DNA of 64,000 bases from Cytophagales bacterium (GTDB taxonomy: Bacteria; Bacteroidota; Bacteroidia; Cytophagales; Flammeovirgaceae): NCBI GenBank assembly GCA_025056215.1, contig JANWWC010000002.1:207922-271921 (forward strand). Reading direction: 5' to 3'. The number at the start of each line of letters is the position of its first letter. Within the stretch, counting starts at the first letter, position 1. The notes below the pieces were generated by a model. The model made no database searches. It was not told where the DNA came from and saw nothing but the letters and a program-made list of their open reading frames with translations. The position numbers and the translations under genes were made by a program. Below, one piece after another: positions 54,092-64,000 of the stretch.

Positions 54092-54670
54092 TTATCGAAT
54101 TAAAACAGGAAACACTCCTGAAAAATCTGAGGAACCTGCATTTGGGTTATCTTGCTTAGCAGTTCCAGAAAAATGACGTAAATCTACTTTCAAAGTACCA
54201 GAAGTGACAGAAGAAGCATTTACTCGTAACCGAAAAGTAGTTCCTAACGGCTTGCCATCAGGATCTGTGTTTCGTCCTTCTACAACTACATCAGAAGCAT
54301 TTCCTCCAGAGACTGGCGTATAAGTATAATATAAAAGATGCTCCTTGCTTTCTCTTTCAATTTCAGAAGTGATTTCTTTTGAGTTTACATCATCAAAAAA
54401 ACGAATTCTTCCATTGTACAATTTTGATGCGCCCAAACTCAATGTGTCTGTTTTATCAGGAACTACTACATTTCCCATCATTTTTCCTTTCCAGGCTACT
54501 AGGATTGTATCATTTGCATTTGATACATTTTGCAAACGAATTGTAACACGAGTAATTAGTTCATTATCGTGCTTATGGGAATGATCGTGGTCATGTTCAT
54601 CTTTTTTACAAGATGAAAACCATAACAACCCTCCTATTAAACAAACGGAAAACTTTCTAAAATTTTTCAT
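54092..54670 (-). CDS. His-rich lipoprotein, probable metal-binding partner of the TonB receptor
   Basis: A 192-residue protein with a lipoprotein signal peptide and lipobox 'LWFSSC'. Directly after the cysteine comes a charged His/Asp stretch 'KKDEHDHDHSHKHD', a typical divalent-metal-binding tail, followed by a beta-rich domain of unknown family. It probably sits on the outer membrane and binds zinc or a similar ion. The start ATG 54670 is preferred to ATG 54700, which overlaps the receptor gene. It is the second gene after the TonB receptor and ends before a hairpin terminator. Confidence 0.75.
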   Translation of the reverse strand: MKNFRKFSVCLIGGLLWFSSCKKDEHDHDHSHKHDNELITRVTIRLQNVSNANDTILVAWKGKMMGNVVVPDKTDTLSLGASKLYNGRIRFFDDVNSKEITSEIERESKEHLLYYTYTPVSGGNASDVVVEGRNTDPDGKPLGTTFRLRVNASSVTSGTLKVDLRHFSGTAKQDNPNAGSSDFSGVFPVLIR

Positions 54671-54692: not shown

Positions 54693-57023
54693 TTATGCAT
54701 TAGGTGAAAGAAGATTCAAAGGAACGTGCAATCGAAAAATGAAATTTCTACCAACTTCATCGGCATAATAACGAAGGCGGTCTAAATAATCTCTATATGA
54801 AGTATTGAATACATTTCTTATTTCTAATGATGCCCTAATTTGCTTAAAATAAAACGTAAATTCTACATTCAATAGCTGGTACGCTGGTGGAGGAGGAGCA
54901 AAATCGATATACCAGCGATTTTGTTTGGCTACATGTAAAAGTTCTACTCCTGCTATCAAGCGATAATTTTTTGTCTCAAAAAAACGATAGTTGGATTTTA
55001 AAGAAACACGCCAAGAAGGCACAAGCGGAAGTGGTTTTCTCAAAAAAAGGTTTTCCGCTCTCACGTACATAAACTTGCATATATTGGTAAGGGCCTTATG
55101 GCTATGAGAGACAGAAACATCAGTGCCTGACCAAAAAGCATTCACCTGCTGATATTCAAACAGAGGGAAACCCCCTCTTACTGTTTGAACAAATCTTCCT
55201 GTGGGATTCAAAAAAATAAAGTTATGAATCCATTGAATATATGGAGAAAGTTCAAATTGCAAATTCTTTTCGGTGAATTGCAACATAGAAATGTATTTAA
55301 AACCTCGTTCAGCCTTTAAATTACGGTTCCCTACTTCAAAAGAAGCCGCTCCGTGATGAATACCATTGCTGAACAACTCATTTGCCTGAGGTGCACGCCA
55401 AGCAGAACCTAAATGATGTTTCCACGTAGCTTTATTGCCTATAAAAAATTGAATTCCCGAAGTAAAAGATAAATTTCGAAAAGAGTAATAAAGCGGAGCC
55501 TCTGACTCAGTACGCGGAAGTATTACATCTAAGTAACGCACATCATACCTCAATCCCATTTCTGCTTCCCAGTGCTGGCAACGTTTGTACTTTTCATGAA
55601 CAAAAAAACCCAGGTTTTGTAACGTATAAAAAGGAATAAAATAACGCGTTCCATCCCACGTATTTTTTTGAGTTAAATAATTTAGCCCAATTGCTCCCGA
55701 GAAGTGATATAAGAAAGGTTTATGTTCAAAAACAAAATCTGTGCTGTGAGTAGTTAGCTTAAAATGCAAATCAGGATATAAAATTGAATTCTGTTCTGCA
55801 GTACGACGCACATCTAGCTCAGCTCTATCGTTGAACTGCCTTCCTACAAGAAGTTCAAGCCTTCCTAAAGAAGTTTTCCACCAAGACTTAATTCTAAAAA
55901 GCTCATGCTCTACGCGCTGCATAGGTCTTCGAATGCGATAATCAAACACATCAAATGTTTGAGGTCTTTGCAAAGAAATTGCATATTTCAGATCCTCGAT
56001 ATTTCCGATATGCGCGCCAGAAAAAATACCTAACGTAGTATTAAATTGACTATAAAACACTTCAACTCCTAAATTTTTAGGAAAATACCCTACGTGATAA
56101 GAAAAATTTTTCTCTTCAAACCCAGTATTGTACAAGTAATAGTTAGGTGTATGAAAATTTCCTGCTTTCGACATCGTTCCTTGAAGACGCCACTGAAGAG
56201 AAGGAAACCTGTATACGAAACCTTCTAATAGCATGGAAGAAGTTCCTTGCTGTCCATTGGTCATTCCTACCAGATGTATTTCTGAACGAATGAGTTGTTC
56301 TTTTTGAAGGCGACGCGGTTCTACAAGAATGACCCCCGCAAGCGCATCAGGTCCATATCGCACCGAAGATGCACCTTTTATAACCGCAATGCTATCTGCT
56401 ACAAAAGGATCTATTTCTGGAGCGTGATCATTTCCCCATTGCTGACCTTCTTGACGCAAACCTCCATTTATTATCAAAATTCTGTTTCCAGATAATCCAT
56501 GAATCATAGGTTTGCTAATAGCACTCCCTAAATTGATAGTAGTAATTCCAGGAAGGTTTTTAAGAGTTTCTCCCAAACCAAAACCTCTTTTTTGTGTCAA
56601 CTCATCTCGCCCGAGCGAAGTAGTAACTTGCGTAAGCTCACCCGCATACCTTTCTTCTTTGATTTCTATTTCATGAAGTTGGCAAGCAACTTGATGCAAA
56701 ATAATCTTTTTATAAACAGATTCATGATGTAAATGAAAAATTTGCTCATACGGCTCATATCCAACATGAGTAACTACTAATTTGTAGTCCCCTTGTGGAA
56801 TTTTATGAATTGAAAAACTTCCTAAACTGTCAGAGATGGCGTAAAAAGAATTTTCTTTTCCTAGGAGTATAATGGTCGCTCCCCAAAGCTCTTTAGCGCT
56901 ATCTCCATCGAATACATGTCCTGAAAATGAGTACTCTTTTCCTATGAGCGCTGTAGATTTTGATTGAGCGCTTAAACTTTGGATGCCGAAAAATAGCGAT
57001 ATAAGAATAATAACTTGCAACAT
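54693..57023 (-). CDS. TonB-dependent receptor, probable metal (zinc-like) uptake
   Basis: A 776-residue outer-membrane receptor with a signal peptide (MLQVIILISLFFGIQSLSAQ; ATG 57023, not the TTG at 57059). Residues about 30-115 are a carboxypeptidase-regulatory-like domain. The plug follows, with 'MIHGLSGNRILIINGG', 'GNDHAPEIDPF' and 'VIKGASSVRYGPDALAG'. The 22-strand barrel ends 'NFIFRLHVPLNLLSPNA'. The 'DHAPEIDP' plug type and the neighbouring His-rich lipoprotein resemble ZnuD-like zinc receptors of Gram-negative bacteria, so metal uptake is inferred. A palindromic operator overlaps the start codon. Confidence 0.85.
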   Translation of the reverse strand: MLQVIILISLFFGIQSLSAQSKSTALIGKEYSFSGHVFDGDSAKELWGATIILLGKENSFYAISDSLGSFSIHKIPQGDYKLVVTHVGYEPYEQIFHLHHESVYKKIILHQVACQLHEIEIKEERYAGELTQVTTSLGRDELTQKRGFGLGETLKNLPGITTINLGSAISKPMIHGLSGNRILIINGGLRQEGQQWGNDHAPEIDPFVADSIAVIKGASSVRYGPDALAGVILVEPRRLQKEQLIRSEIHLVGMTNGQQGTSSMLLEGFVYRFPSLQWRLQGTMSKAGNFHTPNYYLYNTGFEEKNFSYHVGYFPKNLGVEVFYSQFNTTLGIFSGAHIGNIEDLKYAISLQRPQTFDVFDYRIRRPMQRVEHELFRIKSWWKTSLGRLELLVGRQFNDRAELDVRRTAEQNSILYPDLHFKLTTHSTDFVFEHKPFLYHFSGAIGLNYLTQKNTWDGTRYFIPFYTLQNLGFFVHEKYKRCQHWEAEMGLRYDVRYLDVILPRTESEAPLYYSFRNLSFTSGIQFFIGNKATWKHHLGSAWRAPQANELFSNGIHHGAASFEVGNRNLKAERGFKYISMLQFTEKNLQFELSPYIQWIHNFIFLNPTGRFVQTVRGGFPLFEYQQVNAFWSGTDVSVSHSHKALTNICKFMYVRAENLFLRKPLPLVPSWRVSLKSNYRFFETKNYRLIAGVELLHVAKQNRWYIDFAPPPPAYQLLNVEFTFYFKQIRASLEIRNVFNTSYRDYLDRLRYYADEVGRNFIFRLHVPLNLLSPNA

Positions 57024-57031
57024 GGTTGCAA
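57015..57031. promoter_or_regulatory. Palindromic operator over the TonB receptor start codon
   Basis: TTGCAAC-ATG-GTTGCAA is a perfect 7-bp inverted repeat with a 3-base spacer. The receptor ATG (57023-57021) falls inside it. A Fur-family repressor such as Zur is a reasonable guess from the gene content, but the motif is not assigned. Confidence 0.65.
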
Positions 57032-57053
57032 TGCTAATCAAAAAATCGCATAA

Positions 57054-57070
57054 ACGCAACTATGTTGCAA
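57054..57070. promoter_or_regulatory. Second, weaker copy of the operator
   Basis: GCAAC-TAT-GTTGC is a 5-bp inverted repeat whose right arm extends to GTTGCAA, like the first site. Its centre lies 39 bases upstream of the first, in the region where the promoter -33 element should be. Confidence 0.55.
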
Positions 57071-57085
57071 TTTTTTATGCTATTA

Positions 57086-57120
57086 AATTAAAAAACGCCT
57101 TACGTTTTATAAGGCGTTTT
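57086..57120 (-). terminator. Terminator of the second giant exoprotein gene
   Basis: An 11-bp stem AAAACGCCTTA (57092-57102) / TAAGGCGTTTT (57110-57120) with a 7-base loop, starting 8 bases past the stop of the giant gene and followed on the minus strand by TTTAAT. Confidence 0.85.
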
Positions 57121-57128
57121 AAAGTATC

Positions 57129-60100
57129 TTATTCAACAGACATCTTTTTAACAAAACGAACCCCGTTCACTTCAAGAACAATCATGTACACTCCTGTTTG
57201 CAGATGCTCGGTAGCATAACTGATTTCATGAAATCCTGAAGATAATTCTCCATCCTTTAGAACATCAACTGTTCTTCCGAGCATATCGACGATCTTCAAA
57301 CTTACATAAGCATCATTGGCAAGTGTAAAACTAATTAGGGTACTATGATGAGTTACAGGGTTTGGAATATTTTGGTAGAGTTGTGTAACGGAGCTATTTG
57401 CTACCGTAACTACTTTTATCTGAGATAATCTTTGTTCCCCGTTTGTACTCACTTCTATCAACTGATAGTAATATGTTCCGCTACTTACTGTGTTATCAAT
57501 GTAAGAATAAACATTCATATTCTCTCCCTTAGCGCGCAACTTCGAATCTAACAAGTAAGAGGCAATCTCATTCCATTGCAGCATATCAGTAGAGCGCCTG
57601 ATAATATAACCAGCTGAATTAGCTCCACTTGCGGTTTTCCAACGCACTACTACCTGCGCTTCTGGTGCGACATATTCAACATTATACTCTAAAATTGTAA
57701 CGGGAAGTGGATTATTGAATACTGTAGAGCCCAGAGTAAAGAAGCTGAAGCTGTTGATATGATTAGAAGAAACCAAGTAGCCCGCTGAAGGTGTACCCGT
57801 ATAGTATTCGTTTCCTTCTGACCACCAAGTATTGTAAGCGGGACCGCGACGGTGAGCAATGCGCAATTGACTATGGTAAACTGGATTAGAAGCGACGTCG
57901 CTAGCAGAATTCCAAGAAAGAATCACCTTCGGTTCCGTACTTGTGGCGTTCCTTGTTAAATCCCAGTACTCAAGGGCGCTTACGTGCGTCATATCGCCTG
58001 GTACAATAGCACCAAAACTCGGTGGAGTTCCTACAAAATACTCAGCAGTAAATGAAGCACCCGCGCTGAAGTTGTTGAAATCAGCAATTCCAATCTCTCT
58101 CAACACTCCATTTTTTCCTACAGGGAAACGGAAAGACTGATTAGTGCCTGTCAGATTTTCCCCTGCTCCAAATACCTTTGTTACGGGTCCACTAATGTAA
58201 GAAGCATCGCTACCTCCAGAAGAACCTGCATAATTTGCACCTGTGGTAACGGCACCTGCCACACTTGCACCTGCTTCCAACGTTAAGGAATTAGTTGCAC
58301 TCGTACCTAACCTACCAGCAATAAGGGTGAGTGTAGCATTCGTACCTTGAATAATTAGCGGAGAACCTAACGTTACTGCATTTCCACTTACACCTGTTCG
58401 GTTAAGTGTCAGGGTTCGTAGTGTTCTATCGGAAGTAGTGGCAGTAGAAAACTTGAGCGTTCCTGCAAGTGGCGAAGAAGAACCTCCAATAATCAAATGC
58501 GAAGTGTTTGAGCCCTTCAAAACCCCAGGAGTATTAGCTAACTGTCCATTGATTGTGAGAGTATCACCATTAATATTCAATACAGCGCCGCTTCCTAAAG
58601 TAAGCGTATCAGAGTTAGTAACACCTACAGTCAGACGATTAGCCATTGCTATTTCATGAGAACTTCTGGTGATAGTCAAAGATTGAAGAGTTCGTGTAGT
58701 AGGAGAAGTTTGCATCATTCGCAAAGGATCGAATTGTCCCGTTCCTCCAATTACCATACGAGACGTATTACTACCTACAAAAGCTCCTGTAGTTGCAGTG
58801 TGTACACCATTGATAGTAAGACGATTACCATTTATGTTGAGCGTAGCACTGCCATGCGCCAAAGTGTCAGCAATTATTAAGTTACTTCCTAGCACATAAT
58901 CAGGAGTACTCCGATTCATATAGAAGGCTTTCAAGGTATGATTAGAAGTTGTAGAGTTATCGAATACAAAGTTTCCGAGTGTACCACTACCTCCTACTAC
59001 TAAACGAGATGCAGCGCTTCCGACAAACCTTCCGCCAGTATTAGAGTAATTACCATTCAGGAATAATGTATTCCCATTGAGATTCAATCCTCCCGAAGCA
59101 AGCGTAAGCAAACCTCCAGAAACTAAATTCAAATTTGTTCCAAGAGTTACGACATCTCCTCCTGCGCTCGTACGATTGATAGTTAAGTTTTGCAAAGTAT
59201 CAGCTCCTGCAGCGAAATTCAAATTACTTCCTAAATTACCAGTTCCATTGAATACAAGAGAAGAAGTAGAAGAACCTCTAAAACCACCTGTTGTAGCAAC
59301 ATAGTTGCCTGCTGTAGAATTCAATGTAAGAGTATGACCATTTAAGTAGACAAAACTACCTCCTAAGCTTATTTGCCCATTATTAGAGGTCGTTCCTACA
59401 ATTAAATTAGAACCTAAAAGGATAGAGTCGGAAGCAGTTCTGTTGACTGTAAACTCTCGAAGTTGTGTTGTAGTCGGATTAGTAAACGCAATAGCATTTT
59501 TTGCAAGAGAGCTATCGGCAAACACTCCATTACCTAAAATGCTTATTCGAGAATTATCGGAGCCAGTAAAAGTAGCATTCGAAAGCGTTCCTTGACGACT
59601 CAACGTTCCAGCCATCGTTAAGCGGAAATTATTCAAATCTAAACGACTATTATCTAGTGTTAGACGCCCGCGCACGTACATGTTATTTGCATCTGCATCG
59701 AGCACTGCAGGTACGACTGTTCCCGAAACAGTATCTAGAATTTTTACTGAGTTATTGCGCAAAATCAAATTAGCATAATCCCTTTCAGGATTAAGTGTAT
59801 GATTAAAGGCGGCTAAACGTCTAACGCGCTGATTGATTCCTGACTGATATACTACTGTTGAATTCGCATGTAAATTGATATTTGCACTTGCTGTATTCAA
59901 TGGGAAACGAGTAGCAACAGTGGGGCTTCCTAGTGTTAAAAATGCAGCTGAGTCTACTGTTAAAATTCCAGTTGTAGAGTGGAAAATTTGAGTTGTACTA
60001 TCTTGTAAATCGTTAAAGCGCTCAATCGTTAAATTACCGCGCACGCGCAAGCTATCAAAGACAGCAGGGCCTTTATAGGTAGAATCGTTGCTAATACGTT

Positions 60101-63100
60101 TGATAGCTATCGCAGAAGGATTCGGATTGCTATTTCTAATAATCAAATTACCGTAATTTCTATTTTGGAGTGCCATACTACCTCCTGGCATATTTAAACG
60201 CGCAATATATTGAACACCTCCTGTTTTGTTAGTACCACCGTTATAAATTACCGTAGAAGTTGCATTTAAACTTAAATCGTTCACATAGTCATACCCAAGT
60301 GGAAATCTTGTGTTTCCTGTTCTGGAGTCGGTAGAATCTGCACCGAGAGTTAAGAAAGCTCCTGCTGCTAAAGTGAGTGTTCTTCCTGCCTGTCCGGTGA
60401 TTTGATAACCATTGTCACACAAATTAGTATTCGTGTTTACGGTCAAATCTCTCGTCACGACTAATTCTCCATTAGCTATTTTATTAACAACCCCTGCAAC
60501 AAAACCTGGCTGTGAAATATCTTTGCTCAATACTAAATTACGATATGCACGGGGAGCAACACGTCCCAATGCTTGCACGGTCTGGTTGAGTTGCCCTGAA
60601 ATATAGCGAACAGTTGTATTAGAATTAGCACTTCCCAAAGAAACTAACGAAGAGTCTGTTACAGGGAAGGTCGTAGAGTTCCAAGCAGAACCCAAATTTA
60701 TAATTCTGTTCACTACATCACCCGTTCCCATAGAAAATGTCGCGCCAGCAGAGGCCACAATCTGATAGCCTGAATCCAAAACTTCTGTACCGTCACTTAC
60801 GATCTCCATAGCTGTACGATACATCAAGCGATTTTGACCATCTGCAGTAGGTGCCCCTATGCGCGGACAAAGGATTTTGACTGCTAATCCAGAACCTCCT
60901 CCATGAGCAAATTGAATTCTTCCGTAAGTTTGGGCAGGATTGGTAGAAGAAAACAAACGGACATTTTGCGTAGTGCTTCCATTTCCACTGTATCTTATTG
61001 TAGAAGTAGCACTTAAATTGATATTATTATTCTGGATATTTAATGGGAATTCAGTAGGATTTACTCCTCCTATGAAGAGCTCTGAACTTCCTGCCATAAT
61101 GAACTGACTTGTATCAGTACCCACGATTTGGTTTCCGTTATCCGTTAATCTTCCTACACTAATTTCCAGATTCCTGTTAAACCGAAGCGTATCTAATAAA
61201 ATAACGGCACCAGAAGTTTTGTTAATTCTAATATTAAAAAATCTATTTTGTGTATGAGTGCTGTGCGAGCGGAGATTTACGTTGTCTCCCCCCTGAAAAG
61301 TAACGGTAGTATTCTGGGCTTTAAAACGAGCCGAAGTAGATGGATTATTTACTAAAAAGCCACCACCACAATACACGTTCTTACTATTAAAGTCAACTTC
61401 ACCTAACTCAATAGTTAAGTTAGGAACTAGCCTTCCTACACCTCCTAAACGATTCAATACTAAGCTATCTTCTAAAATCCATTTTCCTCCGGCTGCATCA
61501 AATTTAATGGGTGTTACGAATGGTTCTCCGTTACTTCTAATTACATGAGTTAGAGAAGTATCTACTACTCTAAAGGTCCAAGAGCCATTCAAGTCGTTTG
61601 TCCAGCGCGTAGGATTTGCATAAGAAACAAAACTACCAGAAATTTCTATTTCAGATGAAGTAACGCCTGGCGCAGCAATTCTTGGCACTGGACCTGCTCC
61701 TGAAAGATAAACAGCCGGCGATAAATAGAAATAACGACACGTAGCAGGTGAAACATCGATGATCATAGCTTGATTAGGACCATCAAAAGAACCTGCTGTG
61801 ATAAACACAGAGTCCAAAGAGGTAGGTGTACATGTATTTCCATTATAAACTAATGAGTCTTGCGACCAATTTCCAGGATTGCTCCAAAGATTCGATACTG
61901 TATTATCAAGCGGATTTAATTGTCCACCTTTGCCAATCCAATAGAAACGTTGCCCTACAGTATTTGCAGGAAAATAAATTTCTCCATTATTATTGGCTAC
62001 GTCTGTTCCTGCAGTATCGTAAACAGGGAAATAAGGAGAACCATATACATAAATATCTTGAACAGTAACGTTTCTCCACTTCTGAGTGTCAAGAGAAAAC
62101 ATCAACCCTGCCGTGATATTAGCTTTTGAAGAGCGTACATAAATCCAACCATTGCAACCTACTTTTGCATAGATTCTACCTGTAATGAGTGTTTTAGCAG
62201 TGTCTGCTCCCGTAGTATCAGCTGCAAAAGATATAATATTAAAATCGTTAGATTGGATAGAGCGAATAGTGTCGTTTCCTTCAAGCGAGGTAAACAACAA
62301 ACGCGCTTCACTATGAAGATAAATGCTATCCAATTTATTGCGTTGGTTCATATACTCAAGCACAGTTCCATTTCCAGCTTTTATCAAACTAGTAGAAACA
62401 GTACGCTGAGCAAATTGCTGTTTGTTGTTAACGTTAGTGTGTGCTCCGTATACGAGAGAGTCTTCAAAAATTGTATAATTGCCATTATCAAATCTAGTAT
62501 AAGCTTGATCGCCAAAAATCACTTGTTTTTTGAATCTCCATGTACCTCTGAATATAAAAGGACGTTGCTGAGCAGCAAAAGAGCCGATGTTATTACCTGT
62601 TATCACACTTCCATACACAATATTTTCGACAGATGTACTTCCCCTAATTATATTAGTGGAGTCTCCATTAGTCATATTACTTGAAAAGTAGATATTTCCT
62701 AAAAACCGCTTAGGAGATGTTCCTGAAATAAATAACTGATAAGCACTGGTATTGGGCGCCAAACGCGAAAAGTGATTAATAGTAAGAAGATTGGTTGTAC
62801 CATCTTCTGAAAAAATATCATTATCAATTCCATAGGTTGTAATACTCGGATAAGTTTTAGATGAATGATTTCCAAAAAATACTCTTACCAACCCTCTTGC
62901 TGGAGAAGGAGTATTAGGGTTATAACCAGAGGTAAAAATAATTTCAGCACTTGTGTCAGCCTCTAGTACAGGTTCGTTTACAACTCCACCATTATTTCTA
63001 AAATCCCATGCCGCATAAAAATCGCTTTGAGGGAAAGGTGGATGCAAACCAAAACCAGTAGCGCGGTATCCGTTCAAATATACTTTTGTATTCGGACGAA

Positions 63101-64000
63101 TGGTTAATTTTCTCGGATTGTTAAAAAACAACCCATTAGTATCCCTATAAGCATTAAAGAAACCTGCATGTATATTATAACCGTTGTTATCAAAATGTCC
63201 TGCTTGCAAGAAAATACAGCCGTAAGCGTTTCCATTTGTAGAATCTCTATCCACCACCAAACTATCGAGTAATGTCCACTTACCCCCTACTCCTCTAAAG
63301 TGCAAATGTGGAATTCTTACGCCTGTTGTACGAATTGTTCGGAGAGTATCAGAGGAAGATAAAATAATAGCGTGCTGGTTAGGAGAATTAATCTGCCAAG
63401 GATCTGTAGCTTGAAAATTGATATTTCCGGAAACTCGCAACGGAACATCAAGGCGAAGGATAGGGTTAGAACCTCCGTCTAACGATGATGCTGCATTCAT
63501 CGACCAATTCAAATTAGCACACGTAGAATTTCCTGAAGTAGTTACGATTTGAGAAGGCGATGTAAAGGATGCAGCATCAAAATAAACATTCGTAGTAGAA
63601 TCAGGCACGCAACCGGAGGGAGCTCCTCCTGAGAAGAAAGACCATCTCGTTCCATCGTTCCAGTCACCCGCATTAGAAACCCAATACAATTCTCGATTAG
63701 AGCCAGTGAAAACGATACCCGTATTATTTCCTAAATTATAACTCAACATAGGATAACCAAAAGCAGTTAAATTAGCACTTGCTAAATTCACATCGCGGAA
63801 ACGAACAGAATAAACAGAATCTGCCGTTCCTAAATGCATAGTAAATTGAGTACCTGTAACATCAGAGGCAACTAATGGTCGATTCGCTGGAGTCGGATAG
63901 GAAGTTGAACAGCCATAGTTGGTTGTAACAATACTATCCACATATAGCGTAGCAGAGGGATTTACTAATATTTGAGCATTGGCTATCGCACTCCTTAAGC
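57129..64000 (-). CDS. Second giant exoprotein with T9SS type A sorting domain (C-terminal part; runs off right edge)
   Basis: The frame is open to the right edge, giving at least 2,289 residues; the internal ATG at 63941 is not the true start. Several 'YWVSNAGDW..' / 'FYWIGKGGQL' modules with 'NVYFDAASF'-type motifs come first. Many beta-strand repeats follow, clearest at nt 59500-58300, where units of roughly 75 residues carry 'LNLNGNTL' and 'SNTSRMVIGGTG'. A 'FPVGKNG...EYWDLTR...FTLGS' module lies at about 58135-57720, then a fibronectin-III-like segment and a C-terminal T9SS type A domain ('LYQNIPNPV', 'VYMIVLEVNGVRFVKKM'). It should be exported by type IX secretion and attached to or released from the cell surface. 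It shares modules with the giant gene at 1-15056. Adhesin or matrix role is inference. Confidence 0.92.
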   Translation of the reverse strand, partial: LRSAIANAQILVNPSATLYVDSIVTTNYGCSTSYPTPANRPLVASDVTGTQFTMHLGTADSVYSVRFRDVNLASANLTAFGYPMLSYNLGNNTGIVFTGSNRELYWVSNAGDWNDGTRWSFFSGGAPSGCVPDSTTNVYFDAASFTSPSQIVTTSGNSTCANLNWSMNAASSLDGGSNPILRLDVPLRVSGNINFQATDPWQINSPNQHAIILSSSDTLRTIRTTGVRIPHLHFRGVGGKWTLLDSLVVDRDSTNGNAYGCIFLQAGHFDNNGYNIHAGFFNAYRDTNGLFFNNPRKLTIRPNTKVYLNGYRATGFGLHPPFPQSDFYAAWDFRNNGGVVNEPVLEADTSAEIIFTSGYNPNTPSPARGLVRVFFGNHSSKTYPSITTYGIDNDIFSEDGTTNLLTINHFSRLAPNTSAYQLFISGTSPKRFLGNIYFSSNMTNGDSTNIIRGSTSVENIVYGSVITGNNIGSFAAQQRPFIFRGTWRFKKQVIFGDQAYTRFDNGNYTIFEDSLVYGAHTNVNNKQQFAQRTVSTSLIKAGNGTVLEYMNQRNKLDSIYLHSEARLLFTSLEGNDTIRSIQSNDFNIISFAADTTGADTAKTLITGRIYAKVGCNGWIYVRSSKANITAGLMFSLDTQKWRNVTVQDIYVYGSPYFPVYDTAGTDVANNNGEIYFPANTVGQRFYWIGKGGQLNPLDNTVSNLWSNPGNWSQDSLVYNGNTCTPTSLDSVFITAGSFDGPNQAMIIDVSPATCRYFYLSPAVYLSGAGPVPRIAAPGVTSSEIEISGSFVSYANPTRWTNDLNGSWTFRVVDTSLTHVIRSNGEPFVTPIKFDAAGGKWILEDSLVLNRLGGVGRLVPNLTIELGEVDFNSKNVYCGGGFLVNNPSTSARFKAQNTTVTFQGGDNVNLRSHSTHTQNRFFNIRINKTSGAVILLDTLRFNRNLEISVGRLTDNGNQIVGTDTSQFIMAGSSELFIGGVNPTEFPLNIQNNNINLSATSTIRYSGNGSTTQNVRLFSSTNPAQTYGRIQFAHGGGSGLAVKILCPRIGAPTADGQNRLMYRTAMEIVSDGTEVLDSGYQIVASAGATFSMGTGDVVNRIINLGSAWNSTTFPVTDSSLVSLGSANSNTTVRYISGQLNQTVQALGRVAPRAYRNLVLSKDISQPGFVAGVVNKIANGELVVTRDLTVNTNTNLCDNGYQITGQAGRTLTLAAGAFLTLGADSTDSRTGNTRFPLGYDYVNDLSLNATSTVIYNGGTNKTGGVQYIARLNMPGGSMALQNRNYGNLIIRNSNPNPSAIAIKRISNDSTYKGPAVFDSLRVRGNLTIERFNDLQDSTTQIFHSTTGILTVDSAAFLTLGSPTVATRFPLNTASANINLHANSTVVYQSGINQRVRRLAAFNHTLNPERDYANLILRNNSVKILDTVSGTVVPAVLDADANNMYVRGRLTLDNSRLDLNNFRLTMAGTLSRQGTLSNATFTGSDNSRISILGNGVFADSSLAKNAIAFTNPTTTQLREFTVNRTASDSILLGSNLIVGTTSNNGQISLGGSFVYLNGHTLTLNSTAGNYVATTGGFRGSSTSSLVFNGTGNLGSNLNFAAGADTLQNLTINRTSAGGDVVTLGTNLNLVSGGLLTLASGGLNLNGNTLFLNGNYSNTGGRFVGSAASRLVVGGSGTLGNFVFDNSTTSNHTLKAFYMNRSTPDYVLGSNLIIADTLAHGSATLNINGNRLTINGVHTATTGAFVGSNTSRMVIGGTGQFDPLRMMQTSPTTRTLQSLTITRSSHEIAMANRLTVGVTNSDTLTLGSGAVLNINGDTLTINGQLANTPGVLKGSNTSHLIIGGSSSPLAGTLKFSTATTSDRTLRTLTLNRTGVSGNAVTLGSPLIIQGTNATLTLIAGRLGTSATNSLTLEAGASVAGAVTTGANYAGSSGGSDASYISGPVTKVFGAGENLTGTNQSFRFPVGKNGVLREIGIADFNNFSAGASFTAEYFVGTPPSFGAIVPGDMTHVSALEYWDLTRNATSTEPKVILSWNSASDVASNPVYHSQLRIAHRRGPAYNTWWSEGNEYYTGTPSAGYLVSSNHINSFSFFTLGSTVFNNPLPVTILEYNVEYVAPEAQVVVRWKTASGANSAGYIIRRSTDMLQWNEIASYLLDSKLRAKGENMNVYSYIDNTVSSGTYYYQLIEVSTNGEQRLSQIKVVTVANSSVTQLYQNIPNPVTHHSTLISFTLANDAYVSLKIVDMLGRTVDVLKDGELSSGFHEISYATEHLQTGVYMIVLEVNGVRFVKKMSVE

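Follow-up and report, generated by a model that had tools for sequence, protein, structure and literature searches.

Upstream of a TonB-dependent receptor gene in a Cytophagales genome lie two copies of one palindrome, the nearer of which covers the receptor's start codon. The question raised by this arrangement is whether the pair serves as operators and, if so, for which regulator and in response to which metal. In the window (the whole 64,000-nucleotide stretch of DNA that we analysed), the downstream candidate operator, TTGCAACATGGTTGCAA at 57015-57031, is a perfect TTGCAAC-N3-GTTGCAA with 0 mismatches (TTGCAACCATGTTGCAA on the minus strand), and the receptor ATG (57023-57021, minus strand) occupies its positions 9-11 when read on that strand. 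The upstream candidate operator, ACGCAACTATGTTGCAA at 57054-57070 (TTGCAACATAGTTGCGT on the minus strand), carries 2 mismatches in 14 positions and starts 39 bp away. Both the perfect palindrome containing the ATG and its partial copy had been pointed out in a sequence-only reading of this DNA, and both are borne out here. With up to 3 mismatches allowed, the 64-kb window holds 10 matches to the palindrome vs 4.28 expected, a number that none of 100 shuffles gave. A terminator-like hairpin (57092-57120, minus strand) lies between the upstream gene and the receptor promoter; since this hairpin ends the upstream gene, the twin palindromes fill the receptor's own short promoter region. The upstream gene itself (57129-63941, minus strand), a 2270-aa open frame, encodes a long, repetitive protein of secreted type, carries a terminator-like hairpin of its own and is outside this finding.

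The receptor (54693-57023, minus strand) has CarboxypepD_reg, Plug and beta-barrel regions and is 776 aa long from the ATG. In NCBIfam it scores highest against haem/haemoglobin receptor families (119 and 115 bits) and third against ZnuD (NF038289), with 109 of the 950 bits set as its cut-off, and all three scores are far under the cut-offs. The earlier description of the receptor as ZnuD-like therefore stands insofar as the ZnuD model is resembled over long stretches, but the haem/haemoglobin families score higher and we treat the protein as like ZnuD rather than as a member of that family.

Bacteroidota promoters use a -33 TTG, and a candidate for it is found at 57057-57059 (minus strand), at positions 12-14 of the upstream operator and 20 bases before a candidate -7 box. 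This box, TAGCATTG at 57029-57036 (minus strand), has one mismatch to TAnnTTTG, and its last TTG forms positions 1-3 of the downstream operator. The open frame has a formal alternative start, TTG 57059, within the upstream copy, but we favour the ATG because the -7-like box falls downstream of that TTG. In Flavobacterium psychrophilum, the -7 box TAnnTTTG spans -12 to -5 and leaderless mRNAs make up 5.5%, according to PMC9723704. By this geometry, the window's box at 57036-57029 puts the predicted transcription start (+1) at 57024 (minus strand), one base before the ATG, which predicts a leaderless receptor mRNA whose start lies inside the operator. The last bases of the -7 box, the predicted +1 and the ATG would thus all lie within the downstream operator. 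That the two copies bracket the promoter, as had been proposed, agrees with the promoter predicted here, in which the upstream copy holds a TTG at -33 distance and the downstream copy the -7 box and predicted start. An inverted repeat overlapping the promoter of a target gene is what is expected of a Zur operator, and that is what we find, the promoter being predicted.

The same geometry bears on an alternative to the DNA operator, namely that the palindrome folds in the mRNA into a hairpin over the start codon and works by attenuation or translational control. A terminator scan of the region gave 3 hairpins vs 0.2 expected, and apart from the one at 57092-57120 these are the two palindromes themselves, picked up as weak hairpins. 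However, a -7 box at -5 puts the first half of the palindrome before the predicted start, and hence in untranscribed DNA, and upstream copies precede the -7 box. Given this -7 box geometry we do not favour an RNA hairpin and consider it extremely unlikely.

We then scanned the organism's own genome (G000; 2.83 Mb in 17 contigs), using as control the reversed palindrome, which has the same composition. Perfect sites number 2 (control 0), and places with up to 2 mismatches number 21 (control 8). The sole other perfect site, C10:281796, falls in the first codons of a gene for a ZigA-like COG0523 GTPase, the larger piece of which matches ZigA (NF038288) at 357 bits, under the cut-off of 600. The intact homologue at locus L039 reaches 553.7 of 600 bits and resembles the model over long stretches, so that we call these proteins ZigA-like and not members. 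The own gene, which lies outside the window, is frameshifted in this assembly (L018, C10:274000-290000, near C10:280643-281800), whereas relatives have intact homologues. The two operons account for 3 of the 21 places; a simple greedy ORF pick puts the other 18 inside open frames, with C15:59109 among them a few codons from the first possible start of its frame. A core search allowing one mismatch returned 13 places (control 3); of the 5 new to it, 4 are in frames and 1 (L261) lies between convergent gene ends. At C13:77405, a match with 2 mismatches 1.5 kb from the second Fur-family gene was considered as autoregulation and rejected, as it is inside the frame of another gene. Two operons are detected in this genome at these thresholds, which leaves room for weaker real sites. 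A random scatter of the motif, which the earlier reading had set against its own proposal, is not what the scan gave, as perfect sites are confined to the starts of the receptor and the ZigA-like GTPase genes.

Across the order, 95 of 390 genomes carry at least one perfect site and 295 carry none; the sites add up to 144, compared with 7 for the reversed palindrome. We examined 75 distinct sites among the 144, assigning classes by clustering and sequence inspection, and 45 of them border genes for TonB receptors, MerC, ZigA-like GTPases, ZIP, the lipoprotein family of the window or Fur-family proteins (TonB receptors at 21 sites, MerC at 10, the lipoprotein family at 7, ZigA-like at 5, Fur-family at 4 and ZIP at 1). 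Of the rest, 18 adjoin families that recur or are suggestive, and 12 adjoin no fitting gene. A Pfam tally of 93 neighbours, taken from both flanks with in-frame cases left out, agrees with these classes (Plug 20, MerC 9, Pyr_redox_2 7, cobW 4, FUR 4). Outside the order, the site occurs in 17 of 284 genomes (control 0), and 13 of these 17 loci fit the same gene kinds when judged by eye without family search; at 3 loci a single site separates a MerC-like gene from a Zur-type gene that diverges from it, and 4 loci fit nothing, 3 of those being inside coding frames. Most of the sites examined in relatives therefore adjoin metal-uptake or Fur-family genes, as had been anticipated, and zinc-uptake or zinc-sparing targets recur across genomes as they would in a Zur regulon. 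The anticipated neighbours included a zinc transporter, found in the ZIP gene, and Fur-family genes, which are also present, but paralogous ribosomal proteins were not recognised at any of the 92 sites inspected (75 in the order, 17 outside).

Several other families recur beside the sites. An FAD/NAD oxidoreductase related to thioredoxin reductase adjoins 7 sites (L026, L040, L043, L056, L063, L086, L092), one of which is also a Fur site, and is found at L054 as well. Small membrane proteins with the motif LHVGCC are encoded beside 6 sites (L082, L083, L085, L087, L091, L093), in most cases by genes that run away from a small lipoprotein-like gene across the intervening site, and have no convincing family match. 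Small HQHH proteins occur at 3 sites, with L032 and L034 also among the 18 suggestive cases.

Two tests went from gene to site, beginning with proteins found beside sites and then scoring their homologues. A ZigA-like gene is present in 52 of 148 genomes, and among 28 usable loci of 30, a site with at most 2 mismatches stands upstream in 12, vs 1 in 560 shuffles and none in 28 coding stretches. Three genomes with ZigA-like genes (G024, G057 and, judged by its absence among the homologue matches, G109) have no Zur homologue, and their ZigA-like genes have no site (5-6 mismatches). For the receptor, we took the best 80 of 552 homologues from named genomes (Pontibacter, Larkinella, Dyadobacter, Runella, Algoriphagus, Cytophaga aurantiaca, Sphingobacterium and others; 33-42% identity), of which 79 were usable. 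A site lies upstream of 41 of these 79 (8 perfect, 21 with one mismatch, 12 with two) vs 1 of 79 in the coding control, and 38 lack a site at this threshold. The relaxed operator consensus is WTGCAACNNNGTTGCAW with AT-rich, symmetric flanks; one of the two tallies behind it counts sites between divergent genes twice. A chance palindrome could draw on the weak matches elsewhere, such as the in-frame 18 of 21 places in the own genome, but shuffle, reversed-palindrome and coding-stretch controls are all low; on these controls we reject chance, whose probability we regard as next to negligible.

Twin copies recur as well. Scoring a second copy at up to 3 mismatches, we found one at 21 of 76 regulon-type sites vs about 2.5% of 1520 random positions (and at 3 of 16 other sites), and at 18 of 41 named receptor promoters vs 1.2% of 410 random positions. 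Twin spacings recur at about 28, 39 and 50 bp, with offsets in the named promoters of 23 (2 cases), 27-28 (9), 39 (1) and 50-51 (6), and peaks in the 76-site set at 28-29 and 36-40 beside single values of 23, 46, 53, 61 and 90. In most cases the TTTG of the -7 box comes from the downstream copy: in 24 of the 41 named receptor promoters, TAnnTTTG is placed exactly at -5 of the copy lying furthest downstream, and in others it is at +23/24 (9), +46 (3), +33/34 (3) or -45 (1). Fifteen twin promoters spaced by 28-29 or 37-40 bp have a TTG within the upstream copy that precedes the box position by 18-21 bases, in a -7/-33 tally in which the L056 row is misplaced. Because spacing and operator letters dictate this placement of the TTG, it is the clustered spacing that is the real observation. 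Exceptions are L077, whose second copy lacks a -7 box, L028, L034 and L070, without such a TTG, and L040, with a spacing of 53 bp. In 8 of the 41 named promoters (L201, L202, L210, L213, L220, L226, L231, L240) the downstream copy has, as in the window, an ATG or GTG at its position 9, although L213, L220 and L231 have an additional in-frame start further upstream; the same is seen in L027, L035, L046, L047 and L049.

The genome has two Fur-family genes, a Zur-like one at C9:75194-75613 and a second at C13:78923-79282. The C9 protein has a FUR domain above cut-off, and on this and on the ligand-type residues given below we count it as a Zur-type Fur-family protein. Its best NCBIfam match is Zur PRK11639 at 32.1 bits vs a cut-off of 167, so that it falls short of the Zur equivalog NF008646 (cut-off 167 bits), and E. 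coli Zur is its sole solved relative at E <=0.01. Residues of the same type as the zinc ligands of E. coli Zur align with them (H67, C81, H88/H90, C99, C102, C135 and C138). The site-linked homologue L094 is matched slightly better by Fur and PerR models than by Zur, and a profile of the family does about equally well against structures of Fur, PerR and Zur; given this ambiguity, sequence alone does not settle the metal. Site-bearing genomes encode a Zur homologue in 45 of 46 cases, and genomes lacking a perfect site in 98 of 148 (Fisher p 1.9e-6, kinship ignored), and with small genomes removed by hand in 45 of 46 vs 97 of 117 (p 0.006, kinship ignored). A site with at most 1 mismatch lies upstream of 6 of 30 Zur homologues and is missing from the other 24, and none was found upstream of the own Zur gene (best 5 mismatches).

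These data also bear on who binds the site and which metal is sensed. The second Fur-family gene, or some unrelated regulator of metal-uptake genes, would offer an alternative binder, but the presence of a Zur-type homologue in nearly all site-bearing genomes and the three loci outside the order with one site between MerC-like and Zur-type genes make this very unlikely. A Fur-family repressor sensing another metal, for example nickel or cobalt, is also unlikely, if less so. COG0523 and MerC families are not known to be zinc-specific, which counts for another metal; against it, the neighbours include a ZIP zinc transporter and ZigA-like GTPases (553.7 bits for the intact L039). Nickel-uptake or Ni/Fe-SOD targets were absent from the 25 Pfam families listed of 65, with no nickel permease or Ni-SOD among them, and none were recognised at the 75 sites. 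Chain 3eyy, which we take to be Nur, ranks at 36 bits under Zur, PerR and Fur chains (50-54 bits). The operator letters and spacing are nevertheless identical to those of the Streptomyces Nur box tTGCaa-N5-ttGCAA as given in PMC3919588, so that the palindrome would pass for a Nur operator. Unlike Nur, however, the system here belongs to a different phylum, its neighbours point to zinc and 3eyy is not among the structures closest to the family profile.

From the computed sites, their recurrence and neighbours, the spacing ladder, the -7 box coincidence and the co-occurrence with Zur homologues, we infer that the paired palindromes are very probably operators of the genome's Zur-like Fur-family repressor, controlling the receptor operon and the ZigA-like GTPase. 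The sequence-only reading had named this a candidate Zur-type regulon site for the lineage, and recurrence, neighbour genes and co-occurrence lend it support. Binding, zinc, repression and the leaderless start would come together as follows. The metal-loaded repressor would place one dimer on each palindrome copy, the upstream dimer covering the -33 element and the downstream dimer the -7 box, transcription start and start codon, and RNA polymerase would be shut out, as the conserved TTG words of the promoter would themselves be operator bases. When zinc drops, the repressor would leave, a leaderless receptor and lipoprotein mRNA would be made and zinc would be carried across the outer membrane, with the ZigA-like GTPase gene derepressed together with the receptor operon. 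We lean slightly towards a broader reading for Bacteroidota, in which Zur operator and promoter would be one object, with TTG words doubling as -33 and -7 and the downstream copy holding the leaderless start codon so that one dimer sits over -7 box, start site and first codon, joined to a new outer-membrane zinc module of the receptor and a beta-sandwich lipoprotein in which two His and one Asp are invariant. If the TTG words of a Nur-box-like palindrome double in this way, twin operators would be expected to cluster near 28, 39 and 50 bp.

Zur regulons of Proteobacteria, Firmicutes, Actinobacteria and Cyanobacteria, as far as covered in the available text of PMC6103462, share with this one a Fur-family repressor homologue, a palindromic promoter operator, and TonB receptors, COG0523 GTPases and ZIP transporters as targets. 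Unlike them, the system described here has its own operator letters, a 7-3-7 layout, -33/-7 words within operators, in a subset a start codon inside the operator, lipoprotein and MerC-type partners, and no ribosomal paralogues recognised beside the sites examined. The available parts of two Zur reviews (PMC6103462, PMC8000910) do not mention Bacteroidetes or give a zinc regulon or operator for the phylum, nor do those of a COG0523/Zur survey (PMC2770081) give one, and the literature listings showed none either; no Bacteroidetes Zur operator is described in the accessible text of PMC9976891, PMC12574912 and PMC11960050, and that of PMC10957091 had no term match. Four features appear to be new, in a search that left RegPrecise and most subscription literature outside: the lineage, the letters of the operator (which the Nur box shares), the operator-promoter fusion and the operon partner. 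For a phylum whose members are prominent in gut, soil and water, this provides a specific candidate zinc regulon and operator that can be put to the test. The leaderless promoter geometry offers an explanation for an operator over a start codon, and the motif can be used to search for zinc genes in unannotated genomes.

Finally, the operon partner is a His-rich lipoprotein (54092-54670, minus strand), whose start we set at Met 11 of the listed ORF because this is the nearly invariant Met. The His-rich character noted earlier is evident in CKKDEHDHDHSHKH near the N-terminus. The protein had no match in Pfam or NCBIfam, and its homologue L188 none in Pfam. Nonetheless, a member is encoded in 67 of the 80 named receptor loci (the best 80 of 552), mostly directly after the receptor, which indicates this unnamed family as the receptor's likely partner. 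Across an alignment of 60 members, C31, Y95, H121, G153, H176 and D192 are invariant, and we infer a metal site. The predicted model (mean pLDDT 87.1; 146 of 202 residues >=90) is a strand-rich beta-sandwich that had no Foldseek match at E <=0.001; VIA-align gave a best Z of 9.2 (rmsd 2.8, 105 aligned), then 7.8 and lower, all to common beta-sandwiches from which we read no function. Lipoproteins also adjoin the operator at L034 (1551-2468), L100, L106 and L108, of which that at L034 matches DUF4625 and the rest are alike by eye only.
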